A stretch of 64,000 nucleotides of DNA from Micrococcaceae bacterium RIT 802 (lineage in GTDB: Bacteria > Actinomycetota > Actinomycetes > Actinomycetales > Micrococcaceae). Positions 11,357-37,461 of this stretch are shown piece by piece. Location: positions 1 to 64,000 of the forward strand of contig JAFEMX010000014.1 in assembly GCA_016892645.1 (NCBI GenBank), in the 5' to 3' direction. Position 1 is the stretch's first letter, and each line of letters starts with the position of its first letter. Both the position numbers and the translations under genes were made by a program. The notes under the pieces were generated by a model. The model did no database searches. It saw only the letters and a program-made list of their open reading frames with translations, and had not been told where the DNA came from.

Positions 11357-12859
11357 CTAGAAACTCGACGAGCTGCCGGCTCCGGAGAAGCTGCCGCCAC
11401 TGCTGCCGTAGCCGGTGCTGGAGCCGCCTCGTGCGCTGTAGACCGATTCCTGGCCGGAACTGTAGCCGGCGCCCACGCTCGCGGCGCCCCAGTAGTAGAC
11501 GCCGGGGTAGGACGTCGTCAGGATGCTGCTGCGCCGGGCCCGTGGCCGGGTGGCGTCCGCCTGGGCCTGCTGGAGTTGCCCGCGCATGAGTTCCTCCTCC
11601 GACTCGGACGTGGCGTAGGTGGTGATCATGGCCTCGGCGTGCTCCCGGAACAGATCGGATAGCCGGGCCCGGGCCTCCCGGACGGCGTCGAGCCCCTCGT
11701 CGGGCGTCATGCTCCCGTCGGCCAGTCCGGCTCCCCACGCCTGGAGGGAAGCGCGGGCATCCTCGCGGAAGCACAACAGCGTTGCCGCCGTGGGTTCGCC
11801 CGGTTCCGTGTCCGAAGTCTCCAGGACCCCCTCGATGCCGCCCAGGTCCTCGCGCAGATCCCGGGTCTGGTGGTCCCACGCCTCGTCCCAGTTCGAGGCG
11901 TGGTTCAGGAAGGCGTTGGAATCGGCGATGACGTCGTCGAGCTTGTCCAGGGCGACCGCAGCCTCGGCGAAGGCTTCCGCCTGCGCGACGCCGTCCGGGA
12001 CGGAGCGCCGCTTCTTCGGGACCCCGTCGAGTTCGCGGCGTTGGTCGTTGAGCCGGGTGTACTGGGCGCGGAACTCCCGGTAGCGCTCCAGCACCAGGGC
12101 GCCGTAGGTGGATTCGGCGGGGATGGTGCGGGCATTGAGCTCGGTGGCGTCCAGGTCCAGGGTCACGCTCGTGTAGGCGGCGTCGCCCTGGGCGACCGCT
12201 TCGGCGAACTTGCGCCGGTTGTTGTGCCGCGACACCAGGATGCCCACGACCACTGCCCCGACGGCCAGGACCCCGAGTCCGGCGAGCACCAACGTGACCG
12301 GGCTGAGGTACCACGGCCGGTTGATGATCCGGGCCCCCGTCTGGACCGCTTCGATGGCCCCGTCCGTCCACTGGGCGTCGGCCAGCAGGTCCTTCGCGGA
12401 GTCCTGGATGTCCCCCTGGGCGTCTTGGCTGACCTTGCGGTCCTCGCCCATGTAGGTGCCCACATGTCGGCCCTCGGGGTCGATGCCGACGATGAAGAGC
12501 CCGTCGGCCCACTTCTGCCCATCGTCGCTGAGCCATGCGGGATGATGGGCGCGGGCAAAGGCCAGCACCCGCTCGTTGAAGTTGTCGTCCTTGGCCCCGC
12601 GTTGGGTGAAGACCACGACGGTGGTGGGGTTGCGGAAACTGGTGTCCTCGATGGCCGGCTTCAGCGTGGCCTGGTCCAGGATGCCGGCGGTGTCCGCCAC
12701 GACCACGTCGGTTGGCGGCACGGCCTGGGCCGGGGTGCCGAGGCCGAGCAGCGTGGCCCCCGCGAGCGCGACGGCGGCCAGGAACCGCGCCATCCGGGCG
12801 AGCGGGGGAACCGTCGTCGTCGTTTCAGCAGGCCGGACTGGTCGCAGATCGGTGCTCAA
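11357..12859 (-). CDS. DUF5129 domain-containing membrane-anchored protein (TPM-like)
   Basis: This protein of about 500 residues is exported and membrane anchored. An N-terminal hydrophobic signal (LAAVALAGATLLGLGTPAQA) precedes a TPM/DUF5129-like domain (VVVADTAGILDQA ... GLFIVGIDPEGRHVG), then a transmembrane segment (LVLAGLGVLAVGAVVVGILV), a long charged helical region with coiled-coil character, and a Ser/Gly/Tyr-rich tail ending in five Ser and Phe. Translation most likely starts at TTG (12859), because AAGGAG lies eight bases before it; the upstream frame has no ribosome site. Such proteins are common in actinomycetes with unknown function; a role at the cell envelope is inferred from topology. 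Confidence 0.8.
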   Translation of the reverse strand: MSTDLRPVRPAETTTTVPPLARMARFLAAVALAGATLLGLGTPAQAVPPTDVVVADTAGILDQATLKPAIEDTSFRNPTTVVVFTQRGAKDDNFNERVLAFARAHHPAWLSDDGQKWADGLFIVGIDPEGRHVGTYMGEDRKVSQDAQGDIQDSAKDLLADAQWTDGAIEAVQTGARIINRPWYLSPVTLVLAGLGVLAVGAVVVGILVSRHNNRRKFAEAVAQGDAAYTSVTLDLDATELNARTIPAESTYGALVLERYREFRAQYTRLNDQRRELDGVPKKRRSVPDGVAQAEAFAEAAVALDKLDDVIADSNAFLNHASNWDEAWDHQTRDLREDLGGIEGVLETSDTEPGEPTAATLLCFREDARASLQAWGAGLADGSMTPDEGLDAVREARARLSDLFREHAEAMITTYATSESEEELMRGQLQQAQADATRPRARRSSILTTSYPGVYYWGAASVGAGYSSGQESVYSARGGSSTGYGSSGGSFSGAGSSSSF

Positions 12860-26947: not shown

Positions 26948-26966
26948 ATAGGGCAGGCTAAGTTAA
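26948..26966 (+). promoter_or_regulatory. DtxR/IdeR-type iron box before the siderophore importer
   Basis: The 19 bases around AGGCTAA match the DtxR/IdeR consensus (TTAGGTTAGGCTAACCTAA) at 14 of 19 positions by eye. They lie 56 bases before the start of the siderophore-binding protein gene in a locally A/T-rich promoter region, so iron-loaded DtxR is expected to repress the four-gene operon. Confidence 0.68.
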
Positions 26967-27021: not shown

Positions 27022-27999
27022 ATGTCCTCCATCAAACTGCGCCTCGGCGTACTGCTCGGTGTTTCCGCCCTCGCCCTCACCGCCTGCGGCGGCGCATCGT
27101 CGGCATCCACCGACGCGGCCGGCGACGCCCCCACCATCGAGGTCCAGGACAACAACGGGACCCAGAACGTGAAGACCCCGCCCGCTTCCGTCGTCGCCAC
27201 CGACAACCGGACCTTCCAGACCCTCGCGGACTGGGGCGTCGAACTCTCCGCCGGCGCCGTCAGCCTCATGCCGGACAGCATCGCCTACACGCAGGACGAG
27301 TCCATCGTGGACCTGGGCAGCCACCGCGAACCCAACCTGGAATCCGTCGTTGCCGCGGAACCCGACCTGATCGTCAACGGCCAGCGCTTCGCCCAGTTCC
27401 ATGAGGACTTCGCGCGGCTGACGCCCGAGGCGACCATCCTGGAACTGGATCCGCGCGACGGGCAGCCCCTCGACGCGGAACTGAAGCGCCAGACGAGCGT
27501 GCTCGGCGAGGTCTTCGGCAAGCAGGCGGAGGCCCGGCAGCTCAATGATGACCTCGACGCCTCCATTGCCCGCGCCCGGAAGGCCTACGACGAGAGCGAC
27601 AAGGTCATGGCCGTGATCACCTCCGGTGGCGACATCGGCTACTCGGCACCGGGCAACGGGCGCACGCTCGGGCCGGTGTTCGACATCCTGGGCCTGACCC
27701 CGGCACTCGAGGTGGACGACGCGAGCGAGGACCACCAGGGCGACGACATCTCCGTCGAGGCCATCGCGAAGTCGAACCCTGACTGGATCCTCGCGATGGA
27801 CCGCGACGCAGCCGTCGCCGCCGACGACGCCTCCTACGAGCCGGCCAACGAGCTCATCGGGACGTCCGCGGCCCTGAAGAACGTGCCGGCGGTGAAGAAC
27901 CAGCACATCGTCTACATGCCCGCCGACACCTACACCAACGAGGGCATCCAGACCTACACGGAGTTCTTCAACTCCTTCGCCGACGCCCTCGAGGGCTAG
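27022..27999 (+). CDS. Siderophore ABC transporter substrate-binding lipoprotein (FecB/YclQ-like)
   Basis: This 325-residue lipoprotein captures an iron-siderophore outside the membrane. The lipobox is LTAC with Cys22, followed by a Ser/Thr-rich linker and a two-lobed periplasmic-binding-type domain (VVATDNRTFQTLADWGVEL, VVAAEPDLIVNGQRF, FDILGLTPALEVDD). It is closest in style to CeuE/FatB/YclQ-type catechol siderophore binders. The start follows AAGGAT; an iron box and a leader hairpin lie upstream. Two permeases and an ATPase follow on the same strand with overlaps, forming a complete importer. Confidence 0.92.
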   Translation: MSSIKLRLGVLLGVSALALTACGGASSASTDAAGDAPTIEVQDNNGTQNVKTPPASVVATDNRTFQTLADWGVELSAGAVSLMPDSIAYTQDESIVDLGSHREPNLESVVAAEPDLIVNGQRFAQFHEDFARLTPEATILELDPRDGQPLDAELKRQTSVLGEVFGKQAEARQLNDDLDASIARARKAYDESDKVMAVITSGGDIGYSAPGNGRTLGPVFDILGLTPALEVDDASEDHQGDDISVEAIAKSNPDWILAMDRDAAVAADDASYEPANELIGTSAALKNVPAVKNQHIVYMPADTYTNEGIQTYTEFFNSFADALEG

Positions 28000-28014
28000 G
28001 AACGATCCGACACG

Positions 28015-28995
28015 ATGACCACCACGGCCCAGCGCGCCGCCTCCAAGGGCAGTCTCTTCGAACCACGGCTCCTCATCGGTGTCGCCGTCGTCGGTACCCT
28101 GCTGGTGTTCTCCCTGTTCACCGGCGTCTACGACGTCTTCGGCGGTGAACAGGGCGGGGAGATGTTCGGGATCACGCGCATCCCGCGCACCATTGCCCTC
28201 GTGCTGGCCGGCGCGGCCATGGCGATGTCCGGGTTGGTGATGCAGTTGCTGACCCAGAACCGCTTCGTCGAGCCCACGACGACGGGGACCACGGAGTGGG
28301 CCGGGCTGGGCCTGCTGGCGGTCATGATCGTCGAACCCGGTGCCAGCATCACCGTGAAGATGATCGGAGCCGTCGTGGCCGCCTTCATCGGCACGATGGT
28401 CTTCTTCGGCTTCCTGCGGCGGGTCTCGCTGAAGGAGTCCCTGACGGTCCCGATCGTCGGCATCATGCTCGGTGCCGTCGTCGGGGCCGTCTCCACCTTC
28501 ATCGCCCTGCAGACCGACATGCTCCAAAGCCTGGGCATCTGGTTCGCCGGGAGCTTCACCTCCGTGTTGAAGGGCCAGTACGAGGTCCTGTGGATCGTCG
28601 CCCTGGTGGGCATCGCCGTCTTCCTGGTCGCCGACCGGTTCACCGTCGCCGGCCTCGGCGAGGAAGTGGCCACCAACGTCGGCCTGAACTACCACCAGGT
28701 CATCCTCCTGGGGACCGGCCTGATCGCCATCGCCACCGGGATCGTCACCGTGGTGGTCGGCAGCCTGCCGTTCCTGGGGCTCATCGTGCCGAACATCGTC
28801 TCGATGTTCCGCGGTGACGACCTGCGCGGCAACCTGCCGTGGGTCTGCCTGCTGGGCATCGGCATCGTCACCGTCTGCGACCTGGTCGGGCGGACGATCA
28901 TCATGCCCTTCGAGGTCCCCGTCTCGCTGATCCTGGGGGTCGTCGGGGCCATTGTCTTCATCGGACTCCTCCTGAGGCAGCGCCGTCGTGCTTAA
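28015..28995 (+). CDS. Iron-siderophore ABC transporter permease (FecCD family), first
   Basis: This 326-residue permease has about nine to ten membrane segments and FecCD-family marks: RIPRTIALVLAGAAMAMSGLVMQLLTQNRFVEP near the start, and the coupling region GEEVATNVGLNY followed by GSLPFLGLIVPNIV. It begins 15 bases after the binding-protein gene. The wording TGTTEWAGLG fits the CeuB/FatD/YclN branch, in which two different permeases form the channel. The second permease overlaps its end by eight bases. Confidence 0.92.
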   Translation: MTTTAQRAASKGSLFEPRLLIGVAVVGTLLVFSLFTGVYDVFGGEQGGEMFGITRIPRTIALVLAGAAMAMSGLVMQLLTQNRFVEPTTTGTTEWAGLGLLAVMIVEPGASITVKMIGAVVAAFIGTMVFFGFLRRVSLKESLTVPIVGIMLGAVVGAVSTFIALQTDMLQSLGIWFAGSFTSVLKGQYEVLWIVALVGIAVFLVADRFTVAGLGEEVATNVGLNYHQVILLGTGLIAIATGIVTVVVGSLPFLGLIVPNIVSMFRGDDLRGNLPWVCLLGIGIVTVCDLVGRTIIMPFEVPVSLILGVVGAIVFIGLLLRQRRRA

Positions 28996-30043
28996 GACCG
29001 CCGCGCCACCGCACCCCGCCACGTCCCCGCCCCGCACCACGCCGCGCGGATCCGGCCCCCTCCCCACCGCCCGGTCGCGTCGCCGCTACCGGATCGTGCT
29101 GGGGGCCCTCATCGTCCTCGCCGCCGGCTTCGGCTGGGGCCTGCTGGCGTGGGACAACCCGATGCCACCGGGCACGCCCGGATTCTGGAGGATCGCCGAA
29201 CTGCGGGGCACCAGCGTCGTGGTGATGCTCGTGGTCGCCTTCTGCCAGGCCATGGCCACCGTCAGCTTCCAGACGGTGACGAACAACCGGATCATCACCC
29301 CCTCGATCATGGGGTTCGAATCCCTCTACATCGCCGTGCAGACCGCTGCCGTGTTCTTCCTGGGGGCCGCGGGCGTCACCGCAGTGCAGGGCATCCCGCA
29401 ATTCATCGTGCAGGTCCTGGTCATGGTCGGGCTGTCCGTGGCCCTCTACGGCTGGCTGCTCTCGGGCAAGTACGGAAACCTGCAGGTCATGCTGCTGATC
29501 GGCATCATCATCGGCGGAGGGCTCGGTTCCGTGTCCACCTTCATGCAGCGGTTGCTCTCGCCCAGCGAATTCGACATCCTGACCGCACGGCTTTTCGGCT
29601 CGGTCTCCAACGCCGATGCCTCCTACCTGCCGATCGCCATCCCGGTGTGCCTGGTCGCCGGCGGGCTGCTCTGGGCGAACTCCCGGCGCCTGGACGTCGT
29701 CGCCCTCGGCCGGGACACCACCACGAACCTCGGGCTCAACCACCGCGCGGAGGTGATGCGGAGCCTGTTCCTGGTCTCCCTGCTCATGGCCATCTCCACC
29801 GCCCTGGTCGGGCCCATGACCTTCCTGGGCTTCCTGGTGGCCACCCTGGCCTACCAGCTGGCCGACACGCATGACCACCGCTACGTCTTCCCGGTCGCCG
29901 TGCTCATCGGGTTCGTCGTCCTGGCCGGCTCGTACTTCATCATGAAGAACGTCTTCTACGCCGAGGGCGTCGTCTCGATCATCATCGAGGTCATCGGCGG
30001 CTCCCTCTTCCTGTACTTCATCCTCCGAAAGGGCCGCCTGTGA
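28988..30043 (+). CDS. Iron-siderophore ABC transporter permease (FecCD family), second
   Basis: This 351-residue permease is the partner of the preceding one. It has a proline-rich cytoplasmic N-terminus of about 35 residues, then the helices. FatC/CeuC/YclO-like marks include MATVSFQTVTNNRIITPSIMGFESLY, the coupling region RDTTTNLGLNHR and GPMTFLGFLVATLAYQ. The GTG at 28988 lies inside the first permease gene, so translation is coupled. The sequence MGFESLYIA replaces the loop seen in vitamin B12-type permeases. Confidence 0.92.
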   Translation: MLKTAAPPHPATSPPRTTPRGSGPLPTARSRRRYRIVLGALIVLAAGFGWGLLAWDNPMPPGTPGFWRIAELRGTSVVVMLVVAFCQAMATVSFQTVTNNRIITPSIMGFESLYIAVQTAAVFFLGAAGVTAVQGIPQFIVQVLVMVGLSVALYGWLLSGKYGNLQVMLLIGIIIGGGLGSVSTFMQRLLSPSEFDILTARLFGSVSNADASYLPIAIPVCLVAGGLLWANSRRLDVVALGRDTTTNLGLNHRAEVMRSLFLVSLLMAISTALVGPMTFLGFLVATLAYQLADTHDHRYVFPVAVLIGFVVLAGSYFIMKNVFYAEGVVSIIIEVIGGSLFLYFILRKGRL

Positions 30044-30795
30044 TCACCCTCAACGACGTCCGCAAGAGCTACGGCGACGACGTCGAGATCGGCCCGGTCA
30101 GCCTCGAGATCCCGACCGGAGGCATCACCGCCCTGGTGGGGCCCAACGGCGCCGGCAAATCGACCCTGCTGACCATGATCGGCCGGCTGCTCGGCCTCGA
30201 CGCCGGCGCCATCGAGGTCGCCGGCTACGACGTCGCGAGCACCGCGTCGAAGGACCTGGCCAAGATCGTGTCCATCCTGCGCCAGGAGAACCACTTCACC
30301 GCGCGCCTGACCGTCCGCCAACTCGTCGGGTTCGGCCGATTCCCCCATTCTCGCGGTCGACTGACCACCGTCGACGAGGAGGCCATTTCCCGCTCGATCG
30401 ATTTCCTGAACCTCGGCGACCTCGAGAACCGCTACCTCGACCAGCTCTCGGGCGGCCAACGCCAGCGCGCCTATGTGGCCATGGTGCTGGCCCAGGACAC
30501 CGAACACGTCCTGCTGGACGAGCCGCTGAACAACCTCGACATGATGCACTCGGTCCAGATGATGCAGCACCTGCGCCGGGCCGCCGAGGAACTGGGCCGC
30601 ACCATCGTCATCGTCATCCACGACGTCAACTTCGCCGGGCACTATGCGGACCACATCTGTGCGGTCAAGGACGGGAAGGTCGTCGAATTCGGCACCCCGG
30701 AGCAGATCATGACCGACGACGTGCTCAGCCGGGTCTTCGACACCCCCGTGCAGGTCATCGACGGCCCCCACGGACCGCTCGCCGTCTACTACTGA
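30040..30795 (+). CDS. Iron-siderophore ABC transporter ATP-binding protein
   Basis: This 251-residue ATPase drives the iron importer. It has Walker A GPNGAGKST, a Q-loop ILRQENHFTARLTVRQLV, signature LSGGQRQRAYVAMVLA, Walker B HVLLDEPLNNLD and an H-loop VIHDVNFAGHYAD. The LLDEPLNNLDMMHSVQMM wording is typical of CeuD/YclP-type ATPases. The start is GTG 30040, overlapping the second permease by four bases. It ends the operon; no clear terminator is visible in the 72 bases before the next gene. Confidence 0.93.
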   Translation: MITLNDVRKSYGDDVEIGPVSLEIPTGGITALVGPNGAGKSTLLTMIGRLLGLDAGAIEVAGYDVASTASKDLAKIVSILRQENHFTARLTVRQLVGFGRFPHSRGRLTTVDEEAISRSIDFLNLGDLENRYLDQLSGGQRQRAYVAMVLAQDTEHVLLDEPLNNLDMMHSVQMMQHLRRAAEELGRTIVIVIHDVNFAGHYADHICAVKDGKVVEFGTPEQIMTDDVLSRVFDTPVQVIDGPHGPLAVYY

Positions 30796-34567: not shown

Positions 34568-34586
34568 TAAGGTTAGCCTAACAAGA
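34568..34586. promoter_or_regulatory. Orphan DtxR/IdeR-type iron box
   Basis: TAAGGTTAGCCTAACAAGA contains the near-perfect palindromic core AGGTTAGCCTAAC of the DtxR/IdeR consensus and is a better match than the box before the importer. It lies upstream of the leftward SDR gene (110 bases) and downstream of the leftward metallo-hydrolase. No iron-related gene starts beside it on either strand; the SIP fusion begins about one kilobase to the right. Confidence 0.65.
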
Positions 34587-34708: not shown

Positions 34709-35524
34709 CTAGGCCCGTCCCGTGGCCCCGAACAGGTAGTCCAATTGTGCTGCCACCGAGCGCTCGGCTGCCCCGCGCACCGCCGAGTCGACGTCGGCAT
34801 ACACCACGTCGGTGACCTCGCCGACGGACGGCCGGGCCGCCGTCTTCCCGCCGGTGATCCGGGCGACGGCGTCGCGGACCTGGTCCAAACGCTGCAGACG
34901 ATGGGCCGTGTACTGCTCGACGATGGTGCCCAGATGCGGATGGGCCGGCCCGTGGGCCGGGAGCATCGTGGCCCGGGCGAAGCCGGAGAGGACGTCGAGG
35001 CTGGCCAGGTAGTCGCCGAGGGTTCCGTCCGGGAAATCCAGGATCGTCGTCCCGCGTCCCAACAGGGTGTCGCCGGTCAGGACCGAGCCGTGGTGGCCGT
35101 CTTCGGGCACCAGGAAGCACAACGAGTCCGAGGTGTGCCCCGGAGTGGCGACCACCTGGATCGCCACCCCCGCCGCGGTGAGGACATCGCCGTCGGACAG
35201 CGGCTCGGCGGACCGGCAGTGTTCGGCCAGCGCCGCGCGCACCGGCGCACCGGTCAACTCGTGCAGCCGGTCGATCCCCTCCGTGTGGTCGCCATGGCGG
35301 TGGGTGACGAGGATGAGGTCGACGCGCCCTTGGCTCGCCAAGGCCTGCAGATGGCCCTCGTCTGCGGGGCCCGGGTCCACGACCACGACCGAGTCGGCGT
35401 CCCGCGTGGCACGCAGGAGGTACGAATTGGTTCCGTCCAGTGTCATCGGGCCGGGGTTCGGGGCCGTGATCATGGCTGCGCCATCGGTCACGTGCAGGAG
35501 CGGGGCAGAGGTCGGCTGGATCAT
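34709..35524 (-). CDS. MBL fold metallo-hydrolase
   Basis: This 271-residue enzyme of the metallo-beta-lactamase fold has the zinc motif LVTHRHGDHTEG, a further His in TPGHTSDSLCF, Asp in LTGDTLLGRGTT and His in LPAHGPAHP, so both metal sites are complete. It resembles the LACTB2-like hydrolases, which include RNA endoribonucleases and thioesterases. The start is ATG 35524. The leftward gene is not overlapped; its 5' end faces the ABC-SIP fusion gene across a 98-base divergent gap. Confidence 0.88.
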   Translation of the reverse strand: MIQPTSAPLLHVTDGAAMITAPNPGPMTLDGTNSYLLRATRDADSVVVVDPGPADEGHLQALASQGRVDLILVTHRHGDHTEGIDRLHELTGAPVRAALAEHCRSAEPLSDGDVLTAAGVAIQVVATPGHTSDSLCFLVPEDGHHGSVLTGDTLLGRGTTILDFPDGTLGDYLASLDVLSGFARATMLPAHGPAHPHLGTIVEQYTAHRLQRLDQVRDAVARITGGKTAARPSVGEVTDVVYADVDSAVRGAAERSVAAQLDYLFGATGRA

Positions 35525-35622
35525 GCCGCCAGTCTAGGGCAGCGGCACCGACCCGAACCCGTGAGCCGGCCAGCAGAATCCCGCGCGTGCGCCGCGGCCA
35601 CACACCACCACCGGAGGAACAC

Positions 35623-37461
35623 ATGAACACCCTGAAGGCAGAGCGGCTGCCCCTGGAATTCCCTGCCGGGGCGATCACCATGGTCTTCGGCGCCAACGGC
35701 AGCGGAAAATCGACCTTGTTACGCGATCTGGCGGGGCATCCCCCGGCCGGCTCCGCCGACGTGCCGGCCCTGCTGGCCGAACCCCATCCGGCACTCGACG
35801 GAGCCACCGCGCGGGAATACGTTGCCCTCGGCCGGTCGGCAGAAGGGACCGTCTCGACAGCGTGGACACCGCACGACGACGAGGCGATCGACCGGGTGCT
35901 CGCCGCCACCGGTTGCTCGGGGCTCGTGAACCGCACGGCAACGGCTCTGCCGGCCGATCAGCTCCAGCTGCTCGCGGTGGCCCGGGTCCTGGGCCGGGAG
36001 ACCGGCGTCGTGCTCTTGGATGAGCCGACGAACCACCTGGACGTCGCGCAGCAGCTGCTGGTGCTTGATGCCGTCGCCGATCTGAACCGCCGGCGAGGCA
36101 CCACGGTCATCATGGTGGTGCACGACCTCAATCTGGCCACCCGCTACGCGGACCACCTGGTCGCGCTCGTCGGCGGGACGGTGGCCGCGGCCGGGCGCCC
36201 CTCGGAGGTGTTGACCGCCGAGTTGGTCCAGGACGTGTTCGGGCTGCCGGCGCGGGTCATCACCGACCCCGTCGCCGGTTCGCCGTTGGTCCTGCCGATC
36301 GGCCGCCACCGGGTGCTGCGTCCGGAAGCGGCCGAGGGCGGCGCACGGTTCCGCACCACCCGGCTCGATGACGAAACCCCTGCCGCGCAGGAGGTGCCGA
36401 CGGAGGCGAAGGCCACCACTACCGGGCAGGGAGGCGGAGACACCGCCGTCGTGCCCGAGCCGCGGCGCCCCTCGGTGGAGGTCTGCCCGACCCTGGCGTT
36501 CGGCCTCACGGCAGTGGACGTCCAGGACCTGGGCCCCAGCTTCCGCCGGCTGACGCTGGCCGGGCCGGAACTGGAGCACTTCGGCACCGGCGGCCACCCG
36601 TTGGACCTGCGGATCAAGGTCCTGGTGCCGCCACCCGGCGAGGACGCCGTGGCCCGCATGCGCGGGCTCTTCGCCGACCTGGCCCCCGACGGGACGATCA
36701 GCGACGACGACGCGTCCGGCTGGTACCGCGCCTGGCTGGCCAAGGACCCGTCCGAGCGCGGCTCGATGCGCACCTACACGGTCAGGTCCTTCCGCCCCGC
36801 CGGGCACCCCGGAAACGCCGGACCGGATCCGGAACTTGACCTGGACTTCGTGCTGCATGTGCGCCGGGAGGACGGCGTCCTGGTCGGCGGACCCGCCTCG
36901 GTGTGGGCCGCGGAGGCACAGGTCGGCGACGAGGTCATCATCCTCGGGCCGAACCGTGCCCTGTGCGGCCACGACTACGGCGGCATCGAATTCCGTCCCG
37001 GCCAGGCCCGGCGCATCCTGCTGGCCGGCGACGAGACCGCCGCCCCGGCGATCTGCTCGATCCTGGAGTCGCTACCGCCGGGCATCACCGGCGACGCGTT
37101 CATCGAGGTGCCCTCGGTGGAGGACATCCAGGGGTCGTTCACCCGGTCCGGAGTGGCCGTGCAGTGGCTGCCGCGCGGCATGCAGGCCCCGGGGAACCTG
37201 CTGGAGGCGGCCGTGCGCTCCGCGGTCGCCGTTCCCGGTGCCGGCGCCGTGGACCCGGGCAAGGACTTCGAGGACGTGAACGTCGACGAGGGAATTCTCT
37301 GGGAGACGACGTCGGGATCGGGCCAGCCCTTCTACGCGTGGATCGCCGGCGAGGCCGGGGTCATCAAGTCGATGCGCCGCTACCTGGTGCGCGACGTCGG
37401 CATCGACCGCAAGCAGGTCTCCTTCATGGGGTACTGGCGGACGGGCCGCGCCGAGGGGTAG
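35623..37461 (+). CDS. Fusion of a siderophore-type ABC ATPase with a siderophore-interacting (SIP) reductase
   Basis: This 612-residue protein joins two functions normally encoded apart. Residues 1 to about 240 form a FecE-like ATPase: Walker A GANGSGKST (23-31), Walker B VVLLDEPTNHLD and an H-loop VVHDLNLATRYAD are intact, but the usual signature LSGGQ is replaced by LPADQLQLLAVARV. The domain lacks about 15 N-terminal residues relative to FecE. After a Thr/Gly-rich linker, residues about 290-612 form a SIP-type FAD reductase: flavin motif RTYTVRSFRP at about 383, LLAGDETAAPAICSILESL for NAD(P), and QVSFMGYWRTG at the end. SIP enzymes release iron from ferric siderophores in the cytoplasm. 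AGGAG precedes the ATG. Confidence 0.88.
   Translation: MNTLKAERLPLEFPAGAITMVFGANGSGKSTLLRDLAGHPPAGSADVPALLAEPHPALDGATAREYVALGRSAEGTVSTAWTPHDDEAIDRVLAATGCSGLVNRTATALPADQLQLLAVARVLGRETGVVLLDEPTNHLDVAQQLLVLDAVADLNRRRGTTVIMVVHDLNLATRYADHLVALVGGTVAAAGRPSEVLTAELVQDVFGLPARVITDPVAGSPLVLPIGRHRVLRPEAAEGGARFRTTRLDDETPAAQEVPTEAKATTTGQGGGDTAVVPEPRRPSVEVCPTLAFGLTAVDVQDLGPSFRRLTLAGPELEHFGTGGHPLDLRIKVLVPPPGEDAVARMRGLFADLAPDGTISDDDASGWYRAWLAKDPSERGSMRTYTVRSFRPAGHPGNAGPDPELDLDFVLHVRREDGVLVGGPASVWAAEAQVGDEVIILGPNRALCGHDYGGIEFRPGQARRILLAGDETAAPAICSILESLPPGITGDAFIEVPSVEDIQGSFTRSGVAVQWLPRGMQAPGNLLEAAVRSAVAVPGAGAVDPGKDFEDVNVDEGILWETTSGSGQPFYAWIAGEAGVIKSMRRYLVRDVGIDRKQVSFMGYWRTGRAEG

Follow-up and report, generated by a model that had tools for sequence, protein, structure and literature searches.

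A siderophore reductase with a probably vestigial ABC ATPase domain in Micrococcaceae bacterium RIT 802

Results

The gene at 35623-37461 encodes an importer-type ABC ATPase fused to a siderophore-interacting (SIP) reductase. From sequence comparisons and predicted structures we consider it about 80% probable that the product is a working ferric-siderophore reductase that carries a vestigial, non-transporting ATPase domain. In the source genus only, the permease genes, which had separated the fusion from a divergently transcribed hydrolase gene, were deleted in place. All positions refer to the window, the whole stretch of 64,000 nucleotides that was analysed.

27022-30795, plus strand: complete importer with a substrate-binding protein, two FecCD permeases and an LSGGQ ATPase (30040-30795)
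34709-35524, minus strand: putative MBL-fold hydrolase (HRHGDH motif), the divergent neighbour, which adjoins the permease genes in relatives
35525-35622, no strand: 98-bp divergent spacer replacing two FecCD genes (about 2.2-2.4 kb in relatives), from synteny and spacer sequences
35623-37461, plus strand: ABC::SIP fusion gene, 612 aa, ABC degenerate and SIP intact (ORF, Pfam, AlphaFold2 pLDDT 82.5)
35623-36318, plus strand: ABC ATPase domain, probably vestigial, aa 1-232 (aligned to 34 intact fusions)
35941-35991, plus strand: ruined signature region, codons TALPADQLQLLAVARVL against the canonical DELSGGQRQRVWIAMAL (codon listing)
36319-36483, plus strand: low-confidence linker between ABC and SIP, aa 233-287 (pLDDT below 50 for aa 228-272)
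36484-37458, plus strand: FAD-binding 9/SIP domain of a ferric-siderophore reductase, aa 288-612 (Pfam hits, matches in PDB and by fold, invariant residues)

The fusion starts at the ATG at 35623, with GGAGGAACAC directly 5' of it, and runs as a single uninterrupted frame of 612 codons to 37458 (37461 with the stop codon) on the plus strand. Pfam placed ABC_tran at aa 9-137 (2e-11), FAD_binding_9 at aa 298-445 (3e-23) and SIP at aa 463-608 (4e-33), all above the gathering cut-off. The single frame and these domains bear out the proposal of an earlier note, made from the letters alone, that an ABC ATPase and a SIP reductase are joined in one polypeptide. The ATPase domain is of the FepC/FhuC type. 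The other half has PF08021 and PF04954 above the curated cut-off together with the RTYTVR, GDETAAPAI and GYWR motifs of the SIP family, and by sequence and model is most likely an NAD(P)H/FAD ferric-siderophore reductase. No membrane domain, as an IrtA-like protein would have, was found in the polypeptide by Pfam. AlphaFold2 models of the source protein (pLDDT 82.5, pTM 0.55) and of its Arthrobacter rhombi counterpart (pLDDT 80.2, pTM 0.56) both showed a confident RecA-like core and SIP domain with a low-confidence linker between them, and because of the low pTM the placement of the domains relative to each other is not predicted. The fold matches were SIPs (6k2l, 4yhb) and importer ATPases (5b58, 7lb8).

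The architecture, which the earlier note had proposed to look for in other Actinobacteria, proved to be established there. A single-frame ABC::SIP fusion was present in 25 of 149 genomes of the same family, and also in Brachybacterium, Helcobacillus and an Actinomycetales MAG. Many other genomes of the family encode the ATPase and the SIP as separate adjacent genes, for example G007, in which one match stops at 11623 and the following one starts at 11622. In the literature searched, a set that lacks most subscription journals, no description of an ABC::SIP fusion was found. As a side observation from the ABC-domain tree, the ATPase of Pseudoglutamicibacter albus was nearly identical to one of Corynebacterium amycolatum SK46 (L082 and L087, branches of 0.01-0.04), which suggests either that the gene was recently transferred horizontally or that a record carries the wrong label.

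Alignment and codon listing confirmed that Walker A (GANGSGKST), Walker B (VVLLDEPTNHLD, with the catalytic Glu) and the H-loop (VVHDLN) are retained, and that LPADQ stands where an ABC importer has its LSGGQ signature, both as first read. The damage goes further than the signature. The Q-loop Gln has become Glu (LLPQ to LLAE), and a deletion of 13 residues has removed the A-loop and first beta-strand that an importer ATPase has; a further strand segment of the ABC domain is gone as well. Only three genomes of the source genus were at hand, namely the source itself, A. rhombi (G017) and a MAG (G046), and the Q-loop Gln is replaced in all three (LLAE or LLPE). The two sisters keep the A-loop segment, but its aromatic residue is a His, and both carry an in-frame deletion from just past the Q-loop to beyond the signature, so that the helical and signature region is missing altogether. 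Walker A, Walker B and the H-loop survive in all three species. Comparison of the signature across relatives, as the earlier note had suggested, confined the damage to the source genus: LSGGQ and the Q-loop Gln were found in all 34 distinct fusions outside the genus and in none of the three within it. In the ABC-domain tree, these three nest inside the intact fusions, beside the genus of G027 and G055, thus the decay of the ABC domain is derived.

One could imagine an artefact of sequencing or assembly, affecting either the signature or the point where the domains join, since a close pair of compensating indels might have produced the three changes in LPADQ (S>P, G>A and G>D). However, two independent congener genomes are degenerate as well, by a different in-frame deletion, and the Q to E replacement is common to all three congeners. 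The fusion joint and the frame order recur in 36 other distinct fusions, two of them from congeners, which rules out a sequencing error that joined two genes, and we regard an artefact of any of these kinds as extremely improbable.

The claim that no permease genes adjoin the fusion holds for its immediate neighbours, but not farther off, as the complete FecCD importer at 27022-30795 lies 5.6 kb upstream. Each of the 22 other fusions in the family has a FecCD gene directly upstream, with at least one permease apiece among the matches listed. The order of fusion, two FecCD genes and divergent MBL-fold hydrolase was found in G020, G022, G126, Kocuria polaris and Zhihengliuella. The flanks of the G022 locus also match those of the source locus, with the MarR/ABC-exporter pair at one end and the SDR gene and second siderophore cluster at the other. 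Within the source genus these neighbours are kept, but the hydrolase and the fusion are separated by gaps of 98, 77 and 77 bp, the first of these taking the place of the adjoining FecCD pair in the source. An element of the ancestral divergent spacer that is common with relatives, CAGTCTAG, persists in the source spacer. The hydrolase (34709-35524) was named from its HRHGDH motif and not from a family search.

No IdeR/DtxR box was found within the 98-bp spacer upstream of the fusion, therefore iron control of the fusion could not be argued. Two observations were made outside the spacer. A DtxR/IdeR-like palindrome, AAGGTTAGCCTAACA, is located at 34568-34586 in the intergenic region between the SDR and MBL genes, and a similar site occurs in both congeners; it has 3 mismatches to the consensus used, at which none is expected by chance. 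Just after it follow a conserved GGGAGACCA and then GTGGATTC, which could begin a short leader ORF. A weak DtxR-like site with 5 mismatches was seen at 26948-26966, approximately 55 bp ahead of the gene for the substrate-binding protein (27022).

The genome holds six FecCD domains in three systems. Besides the importer at 27022-30795, there is a system on contig 36, with a divergent substrate-binding protein, two permeases and an ATPase, and one on contig 2, with an ATPase, a substrate-binding protein and a fused double permease; the substrate-binding proteins were identified by reading translations and not by family search. An LSGGQ ATPase is encoded with each of the three, and no orphan permease pair was found in the genome. 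This bears on the suggestion that the fusion forms a composite site with an intact partner. Paired with the ATPase at 30040-30795 or with the closer one on contig 36, it would then provide FecCD permeases with two ATP sites, one working and the other degenerate. Heterodimeric ABC transporters with one degenerate site do exist (PMC12038006, PMC5216877), and the source protein keeps Walker A, Walker B and the H-loop. Yet its Q-loop Gln and A-loop strand are gone, both sisters have lost the helical and signature region, which contacts permeases and partner, and the fusion has no accompanying permease gene. An asymmetric transporter would have a partner of its own or a permease in want of a second ATPase, and neither was found. 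The 30040-30795 ATPase, with its signature intact, already serves its own importer and is placed in the tree far from the ABC domain of the fusion; the FecCD systems on contigs 36 and 2 likewise have ATPases of their own. We therefore consider an asymmetric subunit very unlikely.

The ATPase on contig 36 shares about 60% identity with those of the intact fusions. The contig-36 FecCD and ATPase genes were considered as the relocated original and rejected, as the ATPase groups with stand-alone ATPases of Nesterenkonia (98% support). It could have taken over the former role of the fusion. A stand-alone ATPase of the congeners (L135 and L136, from G046 and G017) groups with the contig-36 one on a branch of 0.77 with a support of 63, and with so long a branch and such weak support the two systems may not be orthologous.

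The two halves of the fusion have evolved very differently. With the SIP topology fixed, the summed ABC/SIP branch-length ratio was 3.76 in the source genus versus 0.53 elsewhere, thus relative to SIP the ABC domain evolves approximately 7 times faster there. Residues invariant in the outgroup were kept in the genus at 83 of 84 SIP positions, compared to 63-71 of 114 in the ABC domain, where the losses cluster in the block of Q-loop, helical region and signature (Fisher p 1.5e-3 to 6e-9). Because dS was saturated in several pairs, absolute omega within the genus was taken only from A. rhombi and the MAG, for which a pairwise Goldman-Yang fit gave 0.22 for ABC and 0.06 for SIP; in unsaturated outgroup pairs, ABC omega was 0.01-0.07. 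The value of 0.22 is well below 1 (likelihood ratio 41), hence the ABC remnant is not neutral. GC3 remains gene-like in both domains.

An omega of about 0.2 rather than 1, together with a frame that is intact in all three species, would also suit a repurposed pseudo-ATPase, which does not transport but, bound to a nucleotide, to another importer or to a partner in the membrane, regulates or localises the reductase, for instance by sensing ATP or by docking on the other siderophore importers. Selection would then keep Walker A, Walker B, the H-loop and the fold, while the signature and coupling parts would have been shed differently in two lineages. The three motifs are indeed kept, and whichever of the two deletion types is modelled, the RecA-like core comes out with high confidence. 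Against this, the nucleotide pocket shows no significantly higher retention of residues than the remaining core (p 0.075-0.18), the constraint is explained equally well by folding and translation ahead of SIP, and the deletions differ between the two lineages as decay would predict. We consider such a repurposed role unlikely, although less so than an asymmetric subunit.

Discussion

The reading that we prefer, a working reductase with a vestigial ATPase domain, would have come about as follows. The gene presumably goes back to a siderophore-import cluster of the order fecC-fecD-[ABC::SIP], in which its ancestor stood last. In an ancestor of the genus, the two permease genes were deleted, as synteny shows, and the fusion came to lie beside the divergent spacer; the order of events is our reconstruction. 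Left without a permease, the ABC domain would then have shed the parts that close the ATP sandwich and couple to the permease, the parts now missing being the Q-loop Gln, the signature and the A-loop strand and, in the sisters, the helical subdomain. What is left, a RecA-like core with Walker A, Walker B and the H-loop, is predicted to be still foldable. The soluble SIP reductase, under strong purifying selection, would act on iron that the remaining importers bring into the cell, and the ABC remnant may be retained mainly for its start codon and ribosome-binding site, and for solubility ahead of SIP.

The source protein does fit the non-transporting part of an option that the earlier note had offered, while it may or may not act as the scaffold or sensor named there. 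The coupling of import to reduction first suggested for it is not supported, since permeases, signature, Q-loop Gln and A-loop strand are lost, and for the reasons given above the protein is unlikely to form a composite site with the ATPase at 30040-30795. For the intact relatives, in which fecC, fecD and ABC::SIP form one gene cluster, such coupling is plausible, and it is there that a coupling of import and iron release could really be tested. A widespread fusion of import ATPase and siderophore reductase, in Micrococcaceae and Brachybacterium, is hereby set apart from a decayed special case, in which a fused transporter-enzyme appears to be dismantled within one genus: the permeases are gone, the motor is worn away bit by bit in frame, and the enzyme half is preserved.

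Compared with known systems, the closest are the intact ABC::SIP fusions of Kocuria polaris, Zhihengliuella, Brachybacterium and Helcobacillus, which have the same domain order and full-length homology to the source protein at about 40-58% identity (BLASTP), but keep the LSGGQ and Q-loop Gln that it has lost. Those of the Micrococcaceae also have the same neighbourhood, with the adjoining permease genes kept that the source lost. Stand-alone SIPs (Aeromonas SipS 6k2l, Thermobifida 4yhb, Shewanella 2gpj, 6geh and 8c4l), the best PDB and fold matches, have the same FAD-binding/SIP fold and share RTYTVR, GDETAAPAI and the C-terminal GYWR with the source SIP, but have no ATPase domain. The N-terminal domain has the fold of the FhuC, HmuV and BtuD ATPases (7lb8, 4g1u, 5b58), its best ATPase matches, whereas the signature, Q-loop Gln and A-loop strand are lost and there is no permease. 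Mycobacterial IrtA, found among the PDB matches, is likewise a single polypeptide in which SIP and ABC transporter parts are combined, but there the SIP is N-terminal to an exporter-fold permease-ATPase, while in the source protein it is C-terminal and a membrane domain is lacking. The source gene is no new kind of transporter, but a clear case of a protein machine of which one half has been lost and the other kept.
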